Translations under genes and position numbers: made by a program | Part shown: positions 2,860 to 30,218 of the stretch, in pieces | Position numbering within the stretch: position 1 is the stretch's first letter | How the letters are laid out: the number at the start of each line of letters is the position of its first letter | From: Deltaproteobacteria bacterium | GTDB taxonomy: Bacteria; Desulfobacterota; WTBG01; CAIYCZ01; CAIRTM01 | Assembly (NCBI GenBank): GCA_016875025.1 | Contig: VGSH01000014.1 | Coordinates: forward strand, 1 to 42,073 | Direction: 5' to 3' | DNA: 42,073 bases | The notes under the pieces: model-generated | What the model saw: the letters and a program-made list of their open reading frames with translations, nothing else | Database searches by the model: none | What the model was told of the DNA's origin: nothing

Positions 2860-5800
2860 ATGAGCGCATCGATACATATCAGGGGAGCCTGCCAGAACAA
2901 CCTCAAAAACCTCAATATCGATATTGCGCTCAATACAATTACGGTCATAACCGGCCTGAGCGGATCGGGCAAATCAAGCCTGGCCTTCGACACGCTCTAC
3001 GCCGAAGGCCAGCGCCGCTATATCGAAAGCTTTTCGACCTATGCCCGGCAGTTCATGGACCGGATGGACAAACCGGCCGTCGATGGCATCGACGGCATTC
3101 TGCCGGCAATTGCCGTTACGCAAAGCAACCCCATCAAGACGTCGCGCTCAACGCTCGGCACGCTCACCGAAATCAACGACTACCTGAAACTGCTGTTCCC
3201 CCGCATGGCTGTGCTGCACTGCGAGACCTGCGGCCGCGCGGTTGAACAGGATTCGGCCGCCTCCATTGCCGAACGGCTGCTGCGCGATTACCCGGACCAG
3301 CGCTGCATCGTGACCTTCCCATTCGCGGTTACCCCGGAGGCCCCGATAAGCCCCGAGGAAATCGAACGCGGGCTTAAGGGCCAGGCGTTCTACCGGGTCC
3401 TGCACGACAATGCAACCATCGAGCTGTCAGCAGACTTCATCGCCCGTCACGTTGCGTTCGATCTGGTTGCCGATCGCCTGAGCATCTGCCGGGAGCAGCG
3501 CTCGCGCCTGATTGACTCGCTTGAGTCGGCTCTGAAGTTCGGCAAGGGCCTGTGCAGCGTTTACGTGCCCGATACCGGCGCCGAAACGCTCAAATTCTCG
3601 ATCGCCCGGCACTGCCCGCATTGCGACACGCACTACCGCCCGGCGACAGCCGCGCTTTTTTCATTCAACAATCCGCTGGGCGCATGCCCTCAGTGCAACG
3701 GTTTCGGCAGGACGATCATCCTTGATGTCGACGCGGCCATACCCGATCAGGGGCGCTCGCTGCAGCATGACGCCATCAAACCCTGGTCGACGCCGGCCTA
3801 CCGCGAGGCCTACGCCGACCTGATGGCCTACTGCCGCAAAAAGAATATCCCGGCCACCGTACCGTTCCGCGAGCTGAGCAGCCGCCACAAGCGCGCCATC
3901 ATCGACGGCAACGGAGATTTTTACGGAGTGCGGGGCTTTTTCACGTGGCTTGAGACCAAAAGCTATAAAATGCATATCCGCGTCATGCTTTCCAAATACC
4001 GCGCCTATGCCCCCTGCCCTGCCTGCGGCGGAACGCGCTTCACGCCCGAAACCCTGCTGTACCGCCTGGCCGGCCGCACGATTGCCGACATTCATCGCAT
4101 GAGCATCGCTGAGGCCGCCGGCTTCTTCGCCGCCTGCGCGGACGCGGGCCCGGACGGCGATGAAACCGCAGCCCTGCTGCTCAGGGAGATACGGGGGCGA
4201 CTGGGCTATCTCAACAAGGTGGGCCTTGGATACCTGAGCCTTGACCGCCAGTCGCGCACGCTCTCCGGCGGGGAGGTCGCGCGCGCGAGCCTGACCTGCG
4301 CGCTGGGCTCATCGCTGGTCAATACGCTGTATGTGCTGGATGAGCCCAGCATCGGCCTGCATCCGCGCGACACGCACCTGCTGCTCGACGTGCTGCAGGC
4401 CCTGCGCGATCTGGGCAACACCGTCGTAATCGTGGAACATGACCCCGACATCATTGCCCGCGCCGACCGGGTGATCGACCTGGGCCCGCGCTCCGGTGAA
4501 AACGGCGGCCGCCTCCTGTACGCGGGCCCGCCCGAAGGCATTGTACACGCACCCGCATCCCTGACCGGCGACTATGCCGCCGGCCGGCGCGCCATTGCGC
4601 TGCCCGGGCGCCGCCGCAGCCCCGACAGCAGCACACGCCTGCGCATCCGGGGAGCCCGCTGCAACAACCTGCAGAACCTGAACCTTGACATTCCGCTGGG
4701 ACTGTTCGTCTGCATTACCGGCGTTTCCGGCTCAGGCAAATCAACCCTGCTCGAAGATGTCATTCATCAGGACCTGAGCGCGCCGGGTGAGCGGGTGCGC
4801 TGCTGCCGCCTTGAGGGCAGCGCCCCGCGCGGAGTGATATGCATGGATCAGGCCCCGATCGGCAGAACCCCGCGCTCCAACCCAGCGACCTACATCAAAA
4901 TATTCGACTCGATCCGCGCGCTGTTCGCGGCCGCGCCCCTGGCGGTCGAGCGCGGCTACACGGCTTCGACATTCTCGTTCAACGCCCGGGGGGGCCGCTG
5001 TGAAACCTGCCAGGGCGAGGGGTTTGAAAAAATCGAAATGCAGTTTCTGGCCGACACCTATGTCACGTGTTCGGCCTGCGGCGGCACCCGCTACGCGCCG
5101 CATGTGCTCGATGTCGCCTGTCAGGGCCGCAACATACACGAAGTCCTGCAGCTGACCGTCGCGCAGGCCCGCGCGTTTTTCGCGGGCACCCCGAAGATTG
5201 AATATCCGCTGCGCCTGCTGGACATGGTCGGCCTGGGCTATCTGCGGCTCGGGCAGCCGGCCACCACCCTGTCCGGCGGCGAGTCCCAGCGCCTGAAGCT
5301 GGCCGCGTTCATCCGGCAGGGTTCTGCCGAAAAAACCCTGTTTCTGTTCGACGAGCCCACCACCGGGCTGCACACCGAGGATATCTCCAATCTGCTCACA
5401 ACCTTTGACTATCTGATCAGCCAGGGCCATTCCATCATCGTGGTCGAGCATAACCCCGACCTGATTCAGCGCGCCGATTATATTATCGATCTCGGGCCCG
5501 AAGGCGGCTGCGACGGCGGCCGCATCATCGTTGCGGGCACCCCGGAGGAAGTCATGGCCTGCGCGGCCTCGCATACCGGCCGGTATCTTATAAAGGCCCG
5601 TGAGCGCCGGGTTCCGCACGCACAGTCACCGTCCGTGCCCGTACCGGCCCCGCCGGTAAATGCCATCGTCGTTGAAGGCGCGCGCGAGCACAACCTGCGC
5701 AACGTTTCGCTTGCGATACCGCGCGACCGCCTTGTCGTCATCAGCGGCCTGAGCGGGTCGGGCAAATCAACCCTGGCCTTCGACATCCTGTTTGCCGAGG

Positions 5801-8430
5801 GCCAGCGCCGCTTTCTGGAAACGCTCTCGCCGTATGCGCGCCAGTATGTGACCCAGCTCAAGCGGCCCGATGTCGATTCCGTGCGCGGCCTGCCGCCTGC
5901 GGTCGCCATCGATCAGCTGCTCTCACGCGGCGGCCGCAAATCAACGGTTGCGACCGCGACGGAAATCTATCACTATCTCCGGCTGCTGTTCGCCCGGCTG
6001 GGTGAGCTGCACTGCCCGGGTTGCGGACGGGGGCTTTCGTCCAGCTCCGCGCAGGACATTGCCGGCTGCCTCGAGCGCGATTATGCCACCATCCCTGTTA
6101 AGCTGCTCGCTCCTGTGGTGCGCGGCCGAAAGGGCCTTCATCACGATATCATCCAGAAGGCCCGCCAGGAAGGATTCGATGAAATCCGCATTGACGGTCA
6201 GATGGTGCTGCTGCGGAATATTTTCGCCGTCAAGCGCTATCACGAACATAAAATCGAGCTGGTAACCTGCGCCCTGACTCCTGCGACAACCGCAGCGCAG
6301 CGCCTGCTCATCGAGGTTGAACGCACCCTGGCCATCGGCCGCGGTGAAATGCTCATTGTCACGGCCGACCTGCAGGAGCACTTTTTCAGCACCCGCGCGT
6401 TCTGCCCCGCGTGCCGCCTGAGCGTTGCGCAGCCTGATCCGCGCCTGTTTTCATTTAACAGCCGCTCCGGGGCCTGTCCGGAATGCGACGGGTACGGATC
6501 CACCGGCAGCCTTGACCCCGGGTCAATGATCGCCGACCGCAGCCGCAGCATTGCCGCCGGCGCGCTGGCACCGCTTGAATCGGCCCTGCTGGGCCCTGCA
6601 GTGCGCGCCCGGCTGCTGCAGCGCATCGAGCAGGCCGGCATATGCGTTGATACGGCCTTTAACCAATTGAGCGCATCCGCGCAAAGGGCGCTGCTGCAGG
6701 GCGGCAAAAAATTCGCCGGACTTGCAGCCCTGCTCAGTGCGCCCGCGCTGCTGAAAAAAGCGGGCTGGCAGGAATACCTTGAACAGTTCCACGTTGAAAC
6801 CGCCTGCAGCTCCTGCAACGGCGCGCGCATCAATGCCCAGGCCCGCTCCGTGCGCATCAATGGAAAATCAATTCACGAGCTGACCGCCATGACAGCCCCG
6901 CAGCTCCTGGACTTCCTCACGGGCCTGGCATACACCGGCCGCAGCCTGCAGATCGCAAGGCCGATCATGCAGGAGCTGCTGCCCAAGCTCGAGCTCCTGC
7001 ACAAGGCCGGTCTCTCCTACCTGAGGCTTGACCGCGGGGCTGACACGCTCTCGGGCGGCGAGGCCCAGCGCATGCGCCTGAGCGCCCAGGTCGCCTCAAA
7101 TCTGCGCGGCGCGCTGTACGTGCTGGATGAACCGACCATCGGCCTGCACCCGCATGACACCCGGCGCATGCTGGCGATCATCCGCGAGCTGCAGGCGCGC
7201 GGCAACAGCGTCATCGTGGTCGAGCACGATGAAGACACCATCCGGGCGGCCGACCACATCATCGACCTGGGACCGGGCGGCGGACGCAGCGGCGGCACGG
7301 TTATCGCATGCGGAACCCTGCAGGAGATAATGGCCGATGTTGCTTCGCTGACCGGCGCGCACCTTGCCGGACGCATGCCCCCCGCTCATCAAACCGGAGC
7401 GCGCCCCCTGGCCGGATGCGAACGGCTGCAGGTGCGCGGCGCCCGGGCGCACAATCTCAAAAAAATCACCGTCGGCTTTCCGCTGGGGCGCTTGAGCGTC
7501 GTGACCGGCGTTTCCGGTTCGGGCAAAACCACCCTTGTGCGCGAGACCCTGTACAAGGCTCTGCAAAAGCATTTCGGCCGCTATCACGGGCCGGCAGGTT
7601 CGCATGCCGGCCTGCGTGTTCCCGCGAGCCTTAAAAAGGCGGTTGAGATCGACCAGAGTCCCATCGGCAAAACCCCGCGCTCGATTCCGGCAACCTACAT
7701 GGGCATCTACGACGCCGTGCGCGCCCTGTTCGCAAAACTGCCCGATGCGCGCGTGCGCGGCTATTCGCCGGGCCGCTTTTCCTTCAATCTCAACGGAGGG
7801 CGCTGCGAAGCCTGCGCCGGACAGGGCGAAATAAAAATCGCCATGAGCTTCATGCCCGACATGTACGTGGAATGCGACCGCTGTCGCGGCCGGAGGTTCA
7901 ATGAGGAGACCTGCCAGATATGCTACCGGGATAAAAACATCGCGCAGGTGCTCGGCATGACCATTGATGAAGCCCGTGTTTTTTTCAGCGACGTGCCGGC
8001 GATCGCACAACCCCTCGAGTTTCTGTGCGACATGGGACTGGGCTATCTCGGCCTGGGCCAGCCCAGCCCCACGCTTTCCGGCGGCGAAGCCCAGCGCATA
8101 AAAATTGCCGCCGCTCTCAGCAAACCGACGCAGGGAAAAACCCTGTATGTGCTCGATGAGCCCACCACCGGCCTGCACCCGGCCGATGTTATCAAGCTGA
8201 TGCGTCTTATTCAGCGCCTGGTCGATCTGGGCAACACGGTCATTATTATCGAACATAATCTTGAGGTTATGCGGCAGTCGGACTATATTATTGATCTGGG
8301 ATCCGGCGGCGGCGATGCAGGCGGCCGGGTGGTCGCCTGCGGATCACCGGAGAAAATCGCAGCAGCTGATCCCGGACAATCATGCACCGCTGTCTGCCTC
8401 AGGGAATATATCCTGCGGCACAGCAACTGA
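2860..8430 (+). CDS. uvrA: Double-length excinuclease ABC subunit UvrA
   Basis: 1856 residues, about twice the usual 940: two complete UvrA units in one chain. UvrA is the damage-sensing ATPase of nucleotide excision repair and loads UvrB. Four ATP sites are visible: Walker A at about 32 (GLSGSGKSS), 621 (GVSGSGKST), 963 (GLSGSGKST) and 1550 (GVSGSGKTT), with signature LSGGE at about 468, 804, 1397 and 1739. Each half has the paired CxxC zinc modules, for example CPHC...CPQC and CETC...CSAC in half one, CPAC...CPEC and CEAC...CDRC in half two. The first signature reads LSGGEVAR, lacking the usual Gln of GGEAQR; the other three keep Q. Head-to-tail fused UvrA is known in Chlamydiae and other PVC bacteria. 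It is followed by murJ 18 nt later. Confidence 0.96.
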   Translation: MSASIHIRGACQNNLKNLNIDIALNTITVITGLSGSGKSSLAFDTLYAEGQRRYIESFSTYARQFMDRMDKPAVDGIDGILPAIAVTQSNPIKTSRSTLGTLTEINDYLKLLFPRMAVLHCETCGRAVEQDSAASIAERLLRDYPDQRCIVTFPFAVTPEAPISPEEIERGLKGQAFYRVLHDNATIELSADFIARHVAFDLVADRLSICREQRSRLIDSLESALKFGKGLCSVYVPDTGAETLKFSIARHCPHCDTHYRPATAALFSFNNPLGACPQCNGFGRTIILDVDAAIPDQGRSLQHDAIKPWSTPAYREAYADLMAYCRKKNIPATVPFRELSSRHKRAIIDGNGDFYGVRGFFTWLETKSYKMHIRVMLSKYRAYAPCPACGGTRFTPETLLYRLAGRTIADIHRMSIAEAAGFFAACADAGPDGDETAALLLREIRGRLGYLNKVGLGYLSLDRQSRTLSGGEVARASLTCALGSSLVNTLYVLDEPSIGLHPRDTHLLLDVLQALRDLGNTVVIVEHDPDIIARADRVIDLGPRSGENGGRLLYAGPPEGIVHAPASLTGDYAAGRRAIALPGRRRSPDSSTRLRIRGARCNNLQNLNLDIPLGLFVCITGVSGSGKSTLLEDVIHQDLSAPGERVRCCRLEGSAPRGVICMDQAPIGRTPRSNPATYIKIFDSIRALFAAAPLAVERGYTASTFSFNARGGRCETCQGEGFEKIEMQFLADTYVTCSACGGTRYAPHVLDVACQGRNIHEVLQLTVAQARAFFAGTPKIEYPLRLLDMVGLGYLRLGQPATTLSGGESQRLKLAAFIRQGSAEKTLFLFDEPTTGLHTEDISNLLTTFDYLISQGHSIIVVEHNPDLIQRADYIIDLGPEGGCDGGRIIVAGTPEEVMACAASHTGRYLIKARERRVPHAQSPSVPVPAPPVNAIVVEGAREHNLRNVSLAIPRDRLVVISGLSGSGKSTLAFDILFAEGQRRFLETLSPYARQYVTQLKRPDVDSVRGLPPAVAIDQLLSRGGRKSTVATATEIYHYLRLLFARLGELHCPGCGRGLSSSSAQDIAGCLERDYATIPVKLLAPVVRGRKGLHHDIIQKARQEGFDEIRIDGQMVLLRNIFAVKRYHEHKIELVTCALTPATTAAQRLLIEVERTLAIGRGEMLIVTADLQEHFFSTRAFCPACRLSVAQPDPRLFSFNSRSGACPECDGYGSTGSLDPGSMIADRSRSIAAGALAPLESALLGPAVRARLLQRIEQAGICVDTAFNQLSASAQRALLQGGKKFAGLAALLSAPALLKKAGWQEYLEQFHVETACSSCNGARINAQARSVRINGKSIHELTAMTAPQLLDFLTGLAYTGRSLQIARPIMQELLPKLELLHKAGLSYLRLDRGADTLSGGEAQRMRLSAQVASNLRGALYVLDEPTIGLHPHDTRRMLAIIRELQARGNSVIVVEHDEDTIRAADHIIDLGPGGGRSGGTVIACGTLQEIMADVASLTGAHLAGRMPPAHQTGARPLAGCERLQVRGARAHNLKKITVGFPLGRLSVVTGVSGSGKTTLVRETLYKALQKHFGRYHGPAGSHAGLRVPASLKKAVEIDQSPIGKTPRSIPATYMGIYDAVRALFAKLPDARVRGYSPGRFSFNLNGGRCEACAGQGEIKIAMSFMPDMYVECDRCRGRRFNEETCQICYRDKNIAQVLGMTIDEARVFFSDVPAIAQPLEFLCDMGLGYLGLGQPSPTLSGGEAQRIKIAAALSKPTQGKTLYVLDEPTTGLHPADVIKLMRLIQRLVDLGNTVIIIEHNLEVMRQSDYIIDLGSGGGDAGGRVVACGSPEKIAAADPGQSCTAVCLREYILRHSN

Positions 8431-27478: not shown

Positions 27479-28921
27479 ATGAAGCGTGCCCTTGTCATAG
27501 GTCTGACAATTACCCTGCTTGCCGCAGGCTGCGGCAGGCAAGAGAAGCCTGCTCCCCCGCGCATGATACCCTCATGCGTGCTGACGGGCTCATGGTACGA
27601 AATCGGCCGGCAGACGGCCTACTATTTTCCGGGTTCGATTCTCAGTGGCGCGCTGATCTTCAGGCTGTTCCTGAAGGTCGGCGCAAAGGAAGCGCAAGCC
27701 TACTACGCCCAGATCGAGCCCTGGGTTCAGGAAGACATCCGGGAACAGTTGCGTGGCATGGCCGACGGACTTGAGCAATACTGGCATGTGCCAAAGGGCC
27801 TTGCCCGTGACCTTGTGCTGATATGGAACCTGGGCATCGAGATCAATGCCCGGGACAAAAACAGCGCGGCAGGCTGCACCGCCTTTGCCTTCCATTCTAC
27901 ATCGGGCACATACCTTGCGCACAACACCGACAACCGGCCCGGCACCGGCGGCATGGGCTCGGCTTTCTATTACCGGCCCGACAACGGCGACCGCAATTTC
28001 CTGTCATTCTTCGCGCCCGGCTTCGCGGGCGTGGGCATCGGCATGAACGACAGCGGCCTTGCCATAACGTATAATGTCGGCCGTCCGAACAAGGACGCTG
28101 CCACCGGACTGCCCGGTATCTTCATGGCCCGGCAGATCATGGCGAAATGCGCGACGCTTGGCGAATCGCTCTCCATGTTTAAAGAGCACCTTGACAAAGG
28201 CGGGCGCTATGGCCACGGAGGACTGAATTTTCTGCTCGTTGATTTCAAGGATTCATCGATGGCGCGGGTACAGCTGTGCTCGGGGGATATCAGGATAACC
28301 CGCGGCAGCGAAATCAAGCCGGGTGTCATGTTCGAAGGCTGTTCCAACCATTTCGACGACGATTTTGCACCTCTCTCAGAAACCCAGATGGCGGACCCGC
28401 TCAACATTTCCTCACGGCAGCGCATGCACAGGCTGCTTGAGCTTGCGCAATCGCTTGAAACATACGACCTGCAGACCTGCTGGAATATCCTGACCGACAG
28501 TGAAGACGGCCTGCCGTCAAACACGACCATATGCCGCCGGTGTGATTTCAGCGAAACAACCATGACGAACATTTTCACAGCGGACACAGCCTTCTACAGC
28601 CTGGGGCTTCCCTGCGAATACCTCGCGCACTACGGAGCGCCGCTGCAGATGCCGGTCAATGTGCCGCGCATCTCAATCAGCGGCTGCATAAAAGCCCGGG
28701 GCACGGAGCTGGCCCGCGCCCGTGTTGTCGCCCAGGGCATCACGGACACCACCATCCGGACCGAAACCCTCAGCGCTCCAGACGGCACATACACCCTCTA
28801 CAACCTGCCGGACGGAGTCTACCGCATAACTGTGAAAAAATTTTTTCATACAGGGGAATCAGCTTATATAACCTGCGCCAGCACGGAACCGCAGAAACTC
28901 GATTTCGACCTGTTGCTGTAA
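27479..28921 (+). CDS. Lipoprotein with C45-type Ntn-hydrolase domain and C-terminal beta-sandwich
   Basis: 480 residues. A lipoprotein signal (LTITLLAAGC, lipidated Cys 18) is followed by a domain resembling acyl-CoA:6-aminopenicillanate acyltransferase / peptidase C45 enzymes. The predicted nucleophile is C133 in SAAGCTAFAFHSTSGT, with LAHNTDNRPG after it; in this family the Cys normally becomes N-terminal by self-cleavage. Residues about 400-480 form a carboxypeptidase-regulatory/CnaB-like sandwich (ARVVAQGITDT, APDGTYTLYNLPDGVYRITV). It probably hydrolyses an amide in the periplasm or on the surface; the substrate is unknown. GAAAGGG precedes the ATG. Confidence 0.78.
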   Translation: MKRALVIGLTITLLAAGCGRQEKPAPPRMIPSCVLTGSWYEIGRQTAYYFPGSILSGALIFRLFLKVGAKEAQAYYAQIEPWVQEDIREQLRGMADGLEQYWHVPKGLARDLVLIWNLGIEINARDKNSAAGCTAFAFHSTSGTYLAHNTDNRPGTGGMGSAFYYRPDNGDRNFLSFFAPGFAGVGIGMNDSGLAITYNVGRPNKDAATGLPGIFMARQIMAKCATLGESLSMFKEHLDKGGRYGHGGLNFLLVDFKDSSMARVQLCSGDIRITRGSEIKPGVMFEGCSNHFDDDFAPLSETQMADPLNISSRQRMHRLLELAQSLETYDLQTCWNILTDSEDGLPSNTTICRRCDFSETTMTNIFTADTAFYSLGLPCEYLAHYGAPLQMPVNVPRISISGCIKARGTELARARVVAQGITDTTIRTETLSAPDGTYTLYNLPDGVYRITVKKFFHTGESAYITCASTEPQKLDFDLLL

Positions 28922-29091: not shown

Positions 29092-29211
29092 CTATTTTTT
29101 TTTCGATTCGTCTCTGGTGCCGGTCCGCTGCCTGCTTGCCCACACAAGATATGCGAAGCATACAACTGCCAAGCCCATGAGACAATAAGCTATAAGATCC
29201 TGCAGGTTCAT
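29092..29211 (-). CDS. 39-residue single-span membrane microprotein
   Basis: A tiny gene with a good AGGAG ribosome site 6 nt before the ATG at 29211. The product has a short amphipathic start (MNLQDLIAYC), one membrane segment (LMGLAVVCFAYLVWA) and a basic, charged tail ending DESKKK. The size and layout recall small membrane proteins attached to transporters or oxidoreductases, such as the FeoB-associated or OadG-like types, but no match is claimed. It lies about 60 nt downstream of the anchored protein gene at 29272-29751 on the same strand and is probably co-transcribed with it. Confidence 0.6.
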   Translation of the reverse strand: MNLQDLIAYCLMGLAVVCFAYLVWASRQRTGTRDESKKK

Positions 29212-29271: not shown

Positions 29272-29751
29272 CTAATTCATGGTTGCTGCGCCGGTTGCAG
29301 ACGGCTGGCCATGCACAATGCCTTGCCATTTCTGCAGCGCGTCACGGGCCTCGGCTGCCATTGACCCGGCCAGCTTCTTATCGTCGAAACTGAACACGGC
29401 CTTCTGCGGGGCGCCTGCAGCATCGTTCCAGCTCAGAGCGAGCAGGAACTCCGCCTCGCCCTGCCTGGTCAGGCTGATATCGGTTATGCCGCAGCGGGCG
29501 ATGCGTCCAATCTCCGCGCCGATGACACCCTTGCACACCACGAAGTCTTTATCAGTAACGCCGCAGGACACAATCGCGACCGGCTCCTTCTGAGCGGAAA
29601 AACCCCGGACGTATCGGCCCAGACGGAAACGCTCCGTCAGTTCCGGCTCAGCGGACTGATCCGATGCCGCTGCAGGGGCACTGCTCTTACGAGTAAAAAA
29701 GAAGACAAATCCGATTGCCGCAAAAAATAAAATCGCTGCCAGGTATCCCAT
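29272..29751 (-). CDS. Membrane-anchored hypothetical protein
   Basis: 159 residues. One N-terminal membrane helix (MGYLAAILFFAAIGFVFFF), then an Ala/Ser linker and a soluble domain of about 110 residues with alternating beta strands (EPVAIVSCGVTDKDFVVCKGVIGAEI, AEFLLALSWNDAAGAP, KAVFSFDDKKLAGSM), possibly PH-like. Function unknown. GGGAG lies about 7 nt before the ATG. The gene is immediately downstream of the three-copy hairpin/terminator array, so transcription into it must pass those terminators. The 39-residue microprotein follows it. Confidence 0.65.
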   Translation of the reverse strand: MGYLAAILFFAAIGFVFFFTRKSSAPAAASDQSAEPELTERFRLGRYVRGFSAQKEPVAIVSCGVTDKDFVVCKGVIGAEIGRIARCGITDISLTRQGEAEFLLALSWNDAAGAPQKAVFSFDDKKLAGSMAAEARDALQKWQGIVHGQPSATGAATMN

Positions 29752-29784
29752 CTCATGCTCCCTTCATATACGATGCATTAACAT

Positions 29785-29875
29785 AAAAAAAACCGCCACC
29801 TGCCTGATCGGCAGATAGCGGCCCGACTATCCAGTTCCTTCGGGGATTACTACTGCAAACTCCCCGAACCCTTAT
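29785..29875 (-). ncRNA. Putative structured small RNA or attenuator, unit 3
   Basis: Hairpin 1 at 29839-29868 (loop longer by three bases) and terminator hairpin 2 at 29793-29821 with U run 29792-29785. A stem base change again gives a U-G pair only in the minus-strand RNA. Its U run ends about 33 nt before the ATG of the gene at 29272-29751, so this unit could act as an attenuator of that gene. The 5' end is approximate. Confidence 0.5.
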
Positions 29876-29934
29876 CCATTATTCACATATCTGTACTGCG
29901 CTTTTAAAACCTGTCCGCCAGCAACTCTCCGCAT

Positions 29935-30020
29935 AAAAAAACCGCTACCTGCCTGATCGGCAGATAGCGGCCCGACTATCCAGATCCTCCGGGGATTACT
30001 GCAAACTCCCCGAACCCGTA
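29935..30020 (-). ncRNA. Putative structured small RNA, unit 2
   Basis: Hairpin 1 at 29988-30014 and terminator hairpin 2 at 29942-29970 with U run 29941-29935. One stem base differs from the other copies, turning a U-A pair into U-G in the minus-strand RNA; plus-strand RNA would have a C-A mismatch. A possible own promoter (CGGACA-N16-TACAGA on the minus strand) lies in the repeated upstream segment. The 5' end shown is approximate. Confidence 0.5.
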
Positions 30021-30080
30021 CCCGTTATTCAAATATCTGTACTGCGCTTTTAAAACCTGTCCGTCAGCAACTCTCCGCAT

Positions 30081-30183
30081 AAAAAAACCGCTACCTGCCT
30101 GATCGGCAGATAGCGGCCCGACTATCCAGTTCCTTCGGGGATTACTGCAAACTCCCCGAACCCGTGTTCCTGTTTAATTTTTC
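30081..30183 (-). ncRNA. Putative structured small RNA, unit 1 (promoter-proximal)
   Basis: About 103 nt from the predicted start near 30183 to the U tract (30087-30081). Hairpin 1 at 30134-30160 has a perfect 8-bp stem and an 11-nt loop. Hairpin 2 at 30088-30116 is CCGCTATCTGCC/GGCAGGTAGCGG with one U-G pair, followed by seven U. An alternative pairing is possible between CCCGA of hairpin 1 and TCGGG just before hairpin 2, which could act as a switch. No Rfam family is recognised. Confidence 0.6.
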
Positions 30184-30189
30184 TTTATA

Positions 30190-30218
30190 AATGTACACCC
30201 ATACAGCGTACTTGTCAA
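30190..30218 (-). promoter_or_regulatory. Promoter of the tandem hairpin array
   Basis: Minus strand: consensus TTGACA (30218-30213), 17-bp spacer, TACATT (30195-30190). The predicted start is near 30183, about 430 nt upstream of the first downstream ATG. Confidence 0.62.

Follow-up and report, generated by a model that had tools for sequence, protein, structure and literature searches.

What do three structured repeats, placed in series between a promoter-like site and a small operon, contribute to the control of that operon? The question is raised by a 42,073-nt stretch of a deltaproteobacterial genome (contig VGSH01000014.1, hereafter the window), in which the minus strand of positions 29782-30218 carries three direct repeats starting at 29786, 29935 and 30081 (spacing 149 and 146). 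A first-pass annotation had described them as an unknown structured RNA and proposed, among other roles, a tandem attenuator or riboswitch for the downstream genes. Our analysis indicates that the array very probably consists of three nhaA-I-class alkali-metal riboswitches in series, which would switch on transcription of the presumed minus-strand operon at 29751-29092.

Layout and family identity of the array

The three copies are 146–149 nt long and share 95–98% identity over 66 nt; for two of them, 95% identity extends across the full 146-nt unit (Table 1). In agreement with the first-pass annotation, every unit contains an 8-bp hairpin, a linker, a G+C-rich 12-bp stem (15 bp with G-U pairs) and a U run, and a sigma-70-like promoter site lies directly upstream of the array. 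A TTGAC site also adjoins the first aptamer on its upstream side in relatives of the same genus and the same family. Folding z-scores of the units range from -4.1 to -5.4 in comparison to shuffled sequences, and three of the five terminator-like sites found in 1.6 kb (1.7 expected from shuffles) are array units.

The RNA is not an unknown one. All three copies score above the gathering cut-off of 37 bits for the curated Rfam covariance model RF03057 (nhaA-I), with matches on the minus strand only, and they display the hallmarks of this motif, namely the P1 and P2 helices with a CGGGCC loop in P2. RF03057 corresponds to the published Li+-I/Na+-II riboswitch (PMC9646797). Other Rfam families reached chance-level scores only, and Na+-I (DUF1646 motif) gave no Rfam match up to E = 10.

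Table 1. Features of the riboswitch array and its presumed target operon (window positions).
Feature	Position	Strand	Basis and remarks
Sigma-70-like promoter site, TTGACA-N17-TACATT	30190..30218	-	Sequence match, directly upstream of array
nhaA-I aptamer, first transcribed unit	30108..30163	-	Rfam RF03057, 42.5 bits
Intrinsic terminator, first transcribed unit	30081..30119	-	Folding, terminator scan; overlaps aptamer P2
Linker within duplicated 146-nt unit	30018..30080	-	Repeat comparison
nhaA-I aptamer, second transcribed unit	29962..30017	-	Rfam RF03057, 44.1 bits; P2 arms 29975-29981 and 29962-29968
Intrinsic terminator, second unit	29935..29973	-	Folding, terminator scan; 5' arm 29959-29973 includes P2 3' arm
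Linker	29872..29934	-	Repeat comparison
nhaA-I aptamer, last transcribed unit	29813..29871	-	Rfam RF03057, 41.1 bits
Intrinsic terminator, last unit	29786..29824	-	Folding, terminator scan
159-aa protein, N-terminal hydrophobic anchor and predicted PH-like domain; presumed riboswitch target	29272..29751	-	ORF, structure prediction
39-aa membrane microprotein, second gene of presumed operon	29092..29211	-	ORF

Tandem duplication of units with 95% identity would also be expected of a mobile or terminator-only repeat without any sensing function. However, the 3.25-Mb genome holds no nhaA-I copies beyond the triplet, and the aptamer core is invariant across many phyla, which leaves this reading scarcely credible.

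Two further genes in the window deserve mention. On the plus strand, positions 2860-8430 encode a protein of 1856 aa in which two complete UvrA-like halves are joined in a single frame. In the convergent neighbour of the operon (27479-28921, plus strand), an acyl-CoA:6-APA acyltransferase-like (AAT) domain is followed at the C terminus by a carboxypeptidase-regulatory-like domain.

Predicted competition between helix P2 and the terminator

In the Rfam alignment, helix P2, which was missing from the structure first proposed, is formed by GGAUAGU and GCUAUCU flanking the CGGGCC loop. Its 3' arm sits within the 5' arm of the terminator (see the middle unit in Table 1). Helix and terminator are therefore mutually exclusive, and ligand binding should block termination. 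Consistently, an RNA ending before the 3' arm of the terminator is predicted to form P1 and P2 in all three units, and for the complete RNA the terminator fold is predicted to be 12–16 kcal/mol better than a fold with P2 enforced, although these energies ignore ligand and kinetics. An intrinsic terminator used as expression platform, as an alternative to aptamer pairing, is a feature of Na+-II elements that the units share. Moreover, the leader holds multiple complete aptamers of the same class with an expression platform each, as is characteristic of tandem riboswitches of the pseudo-cooperative type.

Each unit would accordingly comprise a complete aptamer with its own intrinsic terminator, arranged serially before the operon. 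Without ligand, the terminator hairpin would capture the 3' arm of P2 and RNA polymerase would stop at each of the three sites; with ligand, P1 and P2 would be stabilised, the terminator blocked and read-through permitted. The ON direction of the switch is suggested by published relatives. If the three switches act independently, their read-through probabilities should multiply, and the array could combine a very low leak with a steep, digital-like response.

The pairing was further assessed in relatives, which were gathered by profile searches and by a pattern scan of named genomes, some of whose listed matches arise by chance. In 63 aptamers of relatives, 94.4% of the cells in P1 and P2 are paired, with changes on both sides at 12 of the 14 pairs; none of 500 shuffles reached this level of pairing, and sliding the register lowered it to 37–55%. 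Among 134 distinct elements, a few of which are chance matches, 119 form six or seven of the seven P2 pairs and 111 form at least seven of the nine terminator-arm pairs. Both pairings beat 2000 shuffles, a comparison that leaves sequence relatedness in. Within the array itself, two base changes between copies had been taken as evidence of selection on the RNA structure. Both indeed turn U-A into U-G in the minus-strand RNA, but on its own a pair of wobble changes provides little evidence of selection. A switch between CCCGA of the first hairpin and a downstream UCGGG, also suggested earlier, is not borne out by the family: only 30 of the 134 relatives have a CCCG followed by A or G ahead of P2 that could form this pairing, and it is the alternative between P2 and the terminator that is conserved instead.

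Strong terminators are expected to yield short RNAs, and the array could be viewed as three small trans-acting RNAs of about 90–130 nt, whose terminators simply end them and exert no control on the downstream gene. However, sequence and pairing fit a cis-acting riboswitch family, P2 and terminator are both conserved on the same strand, and the arrays stay linked to one gene in three genomes. Small RNAs, as also considered in the first-pass annotation, may arise as by-products of termination, but they are superfluous to the explanation, and a trans-acting function appears very improbable. Its proposal of a structured minus-strand attenuator or riboswitch for the genes behind the array, in turn, gains support from RF03057, covariation and synteny. 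Taken together, both the assignment of the triplet to tandem nhaA-I-class riboswitches with terminators and its mechanism are well supported.

The presumed target operon and the likely natural ligand

Pfam and NCBIfam searches gave no match for either the 159-aa protein or the microprotein. A profile of the 159-aa protein found matches in three of 147 related genomes, namely its own, a genus mate (68–70% identity) and one family member (34% identity), and in all three the gene lies directly behind an nhaA-I tandem array. Its predicted fold (mean pLDDT 72, with good scores from about residue 41 to 143) comprises seven strands and a C-terminal helix and matches PH/PTB-fold structures in structure comparison. 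For the microprotein, a counterpart with 50% identity over 38 aa occupies the same position in the same-genus relative, and in the family member the homologue of the 159-aa protein is followed by an MscS-type channel gene. Control by the array would connect this uncharacterised membrane protein of PH fold, together with the microprotein, to ion stress. The target is not a transporter, and this counts against the explanation preferred here.

Hints on the ligand come from the genes behind other members of the family. Among 77 downstream proteins, Pfam identified CitMHS/NhaD-like carriers (11), trehalose-synthase-type glycosyltransferases (8), MscS channels (5), CPA exchangers (4), Na/Ca exchangers (3), NhaA (2) and DUF1646 (1); single downstream proteins of terminator-type relatives include NhaD, NhaB and NhaA. 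A terminator-type element ahead of an NhaB antiporter gene (L165 1501-3056) is a new case, since nhaA-I RNAs were stated in 2022 never to be associated with nhaB (PMC9646797). In the genome of the window, a profile search found no NhaA. The salt and osmotic character of the downstream genes favours Na+, and we consider Na+ as a salt-stress signal the likelier natural ligand, with Li+ as the alternative.

The same triplet could instead respond to Li+ as a Li+-I riboswitch proper, with an operon protecting against Li+ toxicity. The majority of validated nhaA-I RNAs prefer Li+, and most carry U where the published Na+-II element has C at position 54 (PMC9646797). In all three copies the presumed specificity nucleotide (G-U-CGGGCC) is likewise U, the Li+-like state, this site being the likely equivalent of position 54 in the D. 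propionicus element. At the same presumed site, U is present in 116 and C in 18 of the 134 elements, which include a few chance matches, and U- and C-type elements displayed no visible separation by downstream gene among the relatives compared. However, terminator-type relatives, also those of the U type, lie in front of genes for NhaB, NhaD, mechanosensitive channels and trehalose synthases. Furthermore, the terminator-bearing relative from D. propionicus proved Na+-selective and ligand-activated in vitro, and with the C54U mutation it responded to Li+, Na+ and NH4+ (PMC9646797). We therefore regard Li+ as an unlikely natural ligand.

Distribution and comparison with known systems

Matches to nhaA-I were found in 39 of 395 genomes sampled from the phylum. 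Among 194 genomes from the class of a Desulfobacterales genome and 93 from its family, only three had hits. Terminator-bearing nhaA-I RNAs were reported in 2022 only from Deltaproteobacteria (PMC9646797). Among the named records listed here, Rfam-confirmed terminator-type elements occur in Omnitrophota, Elusimicrobia, Margulisiibacteriota, Nitrospirae, Methylomirabilota, Spirochaetaceae, Actinomycetota and Syntrophaceae, and are thus far wider spread, ahead of a clear set of salt and osmotic genes. It is conceivable, as a tentative extension, that U-site terminator-type nhaA-I elements form a widespread Na+-stress regulon over many phyla (Omnitrophota, Elusimicrobia, Thermodesulfobacteriota and others) and that the PH-like protein and the microprotein constitute a membrane system for salt or osmotic stress that has not been described before, controlled here by a three-stage digital sodium switch. 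One 1.4-Mb genome (G678, locus L151) holds seven nhaA-I elements, a possible genome-wide ion regulon.

Copies at most about 300 bp apart are present in at least 12 genomes, comprising the present triplet and 11 doublets. Since the genus mate and the family member carry doublets before the same target gene, the third copy of the triplet probably arose by recent duplication. In a Desulfobacterales genome (L062), an intact doublet is followed by a degenerate third copy (reverse complement, about 4470-4560), which carries a ACCGGGCUG loop, and then by nhaD, an arrangement resembling the published nhaD triplet. A further doublet (L173, about 4020-4260, genome G111) mixes platforms: copy 1 bears a terminator, and in copy 2 AGGAG and ATG follow directly after P2, which suggests translational control.

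With the nhaA-I/Li+-I riboswitches (RF03057; PMC9646797) the present copies have the aptamer sequence and the P1/P2 structure in common; for most Li+-I members, action at the ribosome-binding site is assumed, whereas each copy here has an intrinsic terminator. Na+-II elements are rare nhaA-I variants that carry an intrinsic terminator and were reported ahead of genes of unknown function. They resemble the array in their P2-overlapping terminator platform, Thermodesulfobacteriota host and uncharacterised target gene, but have C at the specificity nucleotide as opposed to U at the presumed site here, where three copies stand in tandem (PMC9646797). Published nhaA-I tandem arrays comprise six doublets and one triplet (PMC9481103), the latter located before nhaD (PMC9646797). 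This kind of array has been reported once already, and what is new is the target gene and the wider taxonomic range of terminator-type elements. As the second described triplet of the alkali-metal riboswitch class, the array offers a test system for digital control by stacked riboswitches. The published triplet likewise has a terminator after each aptamer, with NhaD as target in contrast to the PH-like anchored protein and microprotein described in this study. The triple-tandem c-di-GMP riboswitch (PMC4759541) also has three complete riboswitches arranged within a single 5' UTR, with an unrelated aptamer and ligand.
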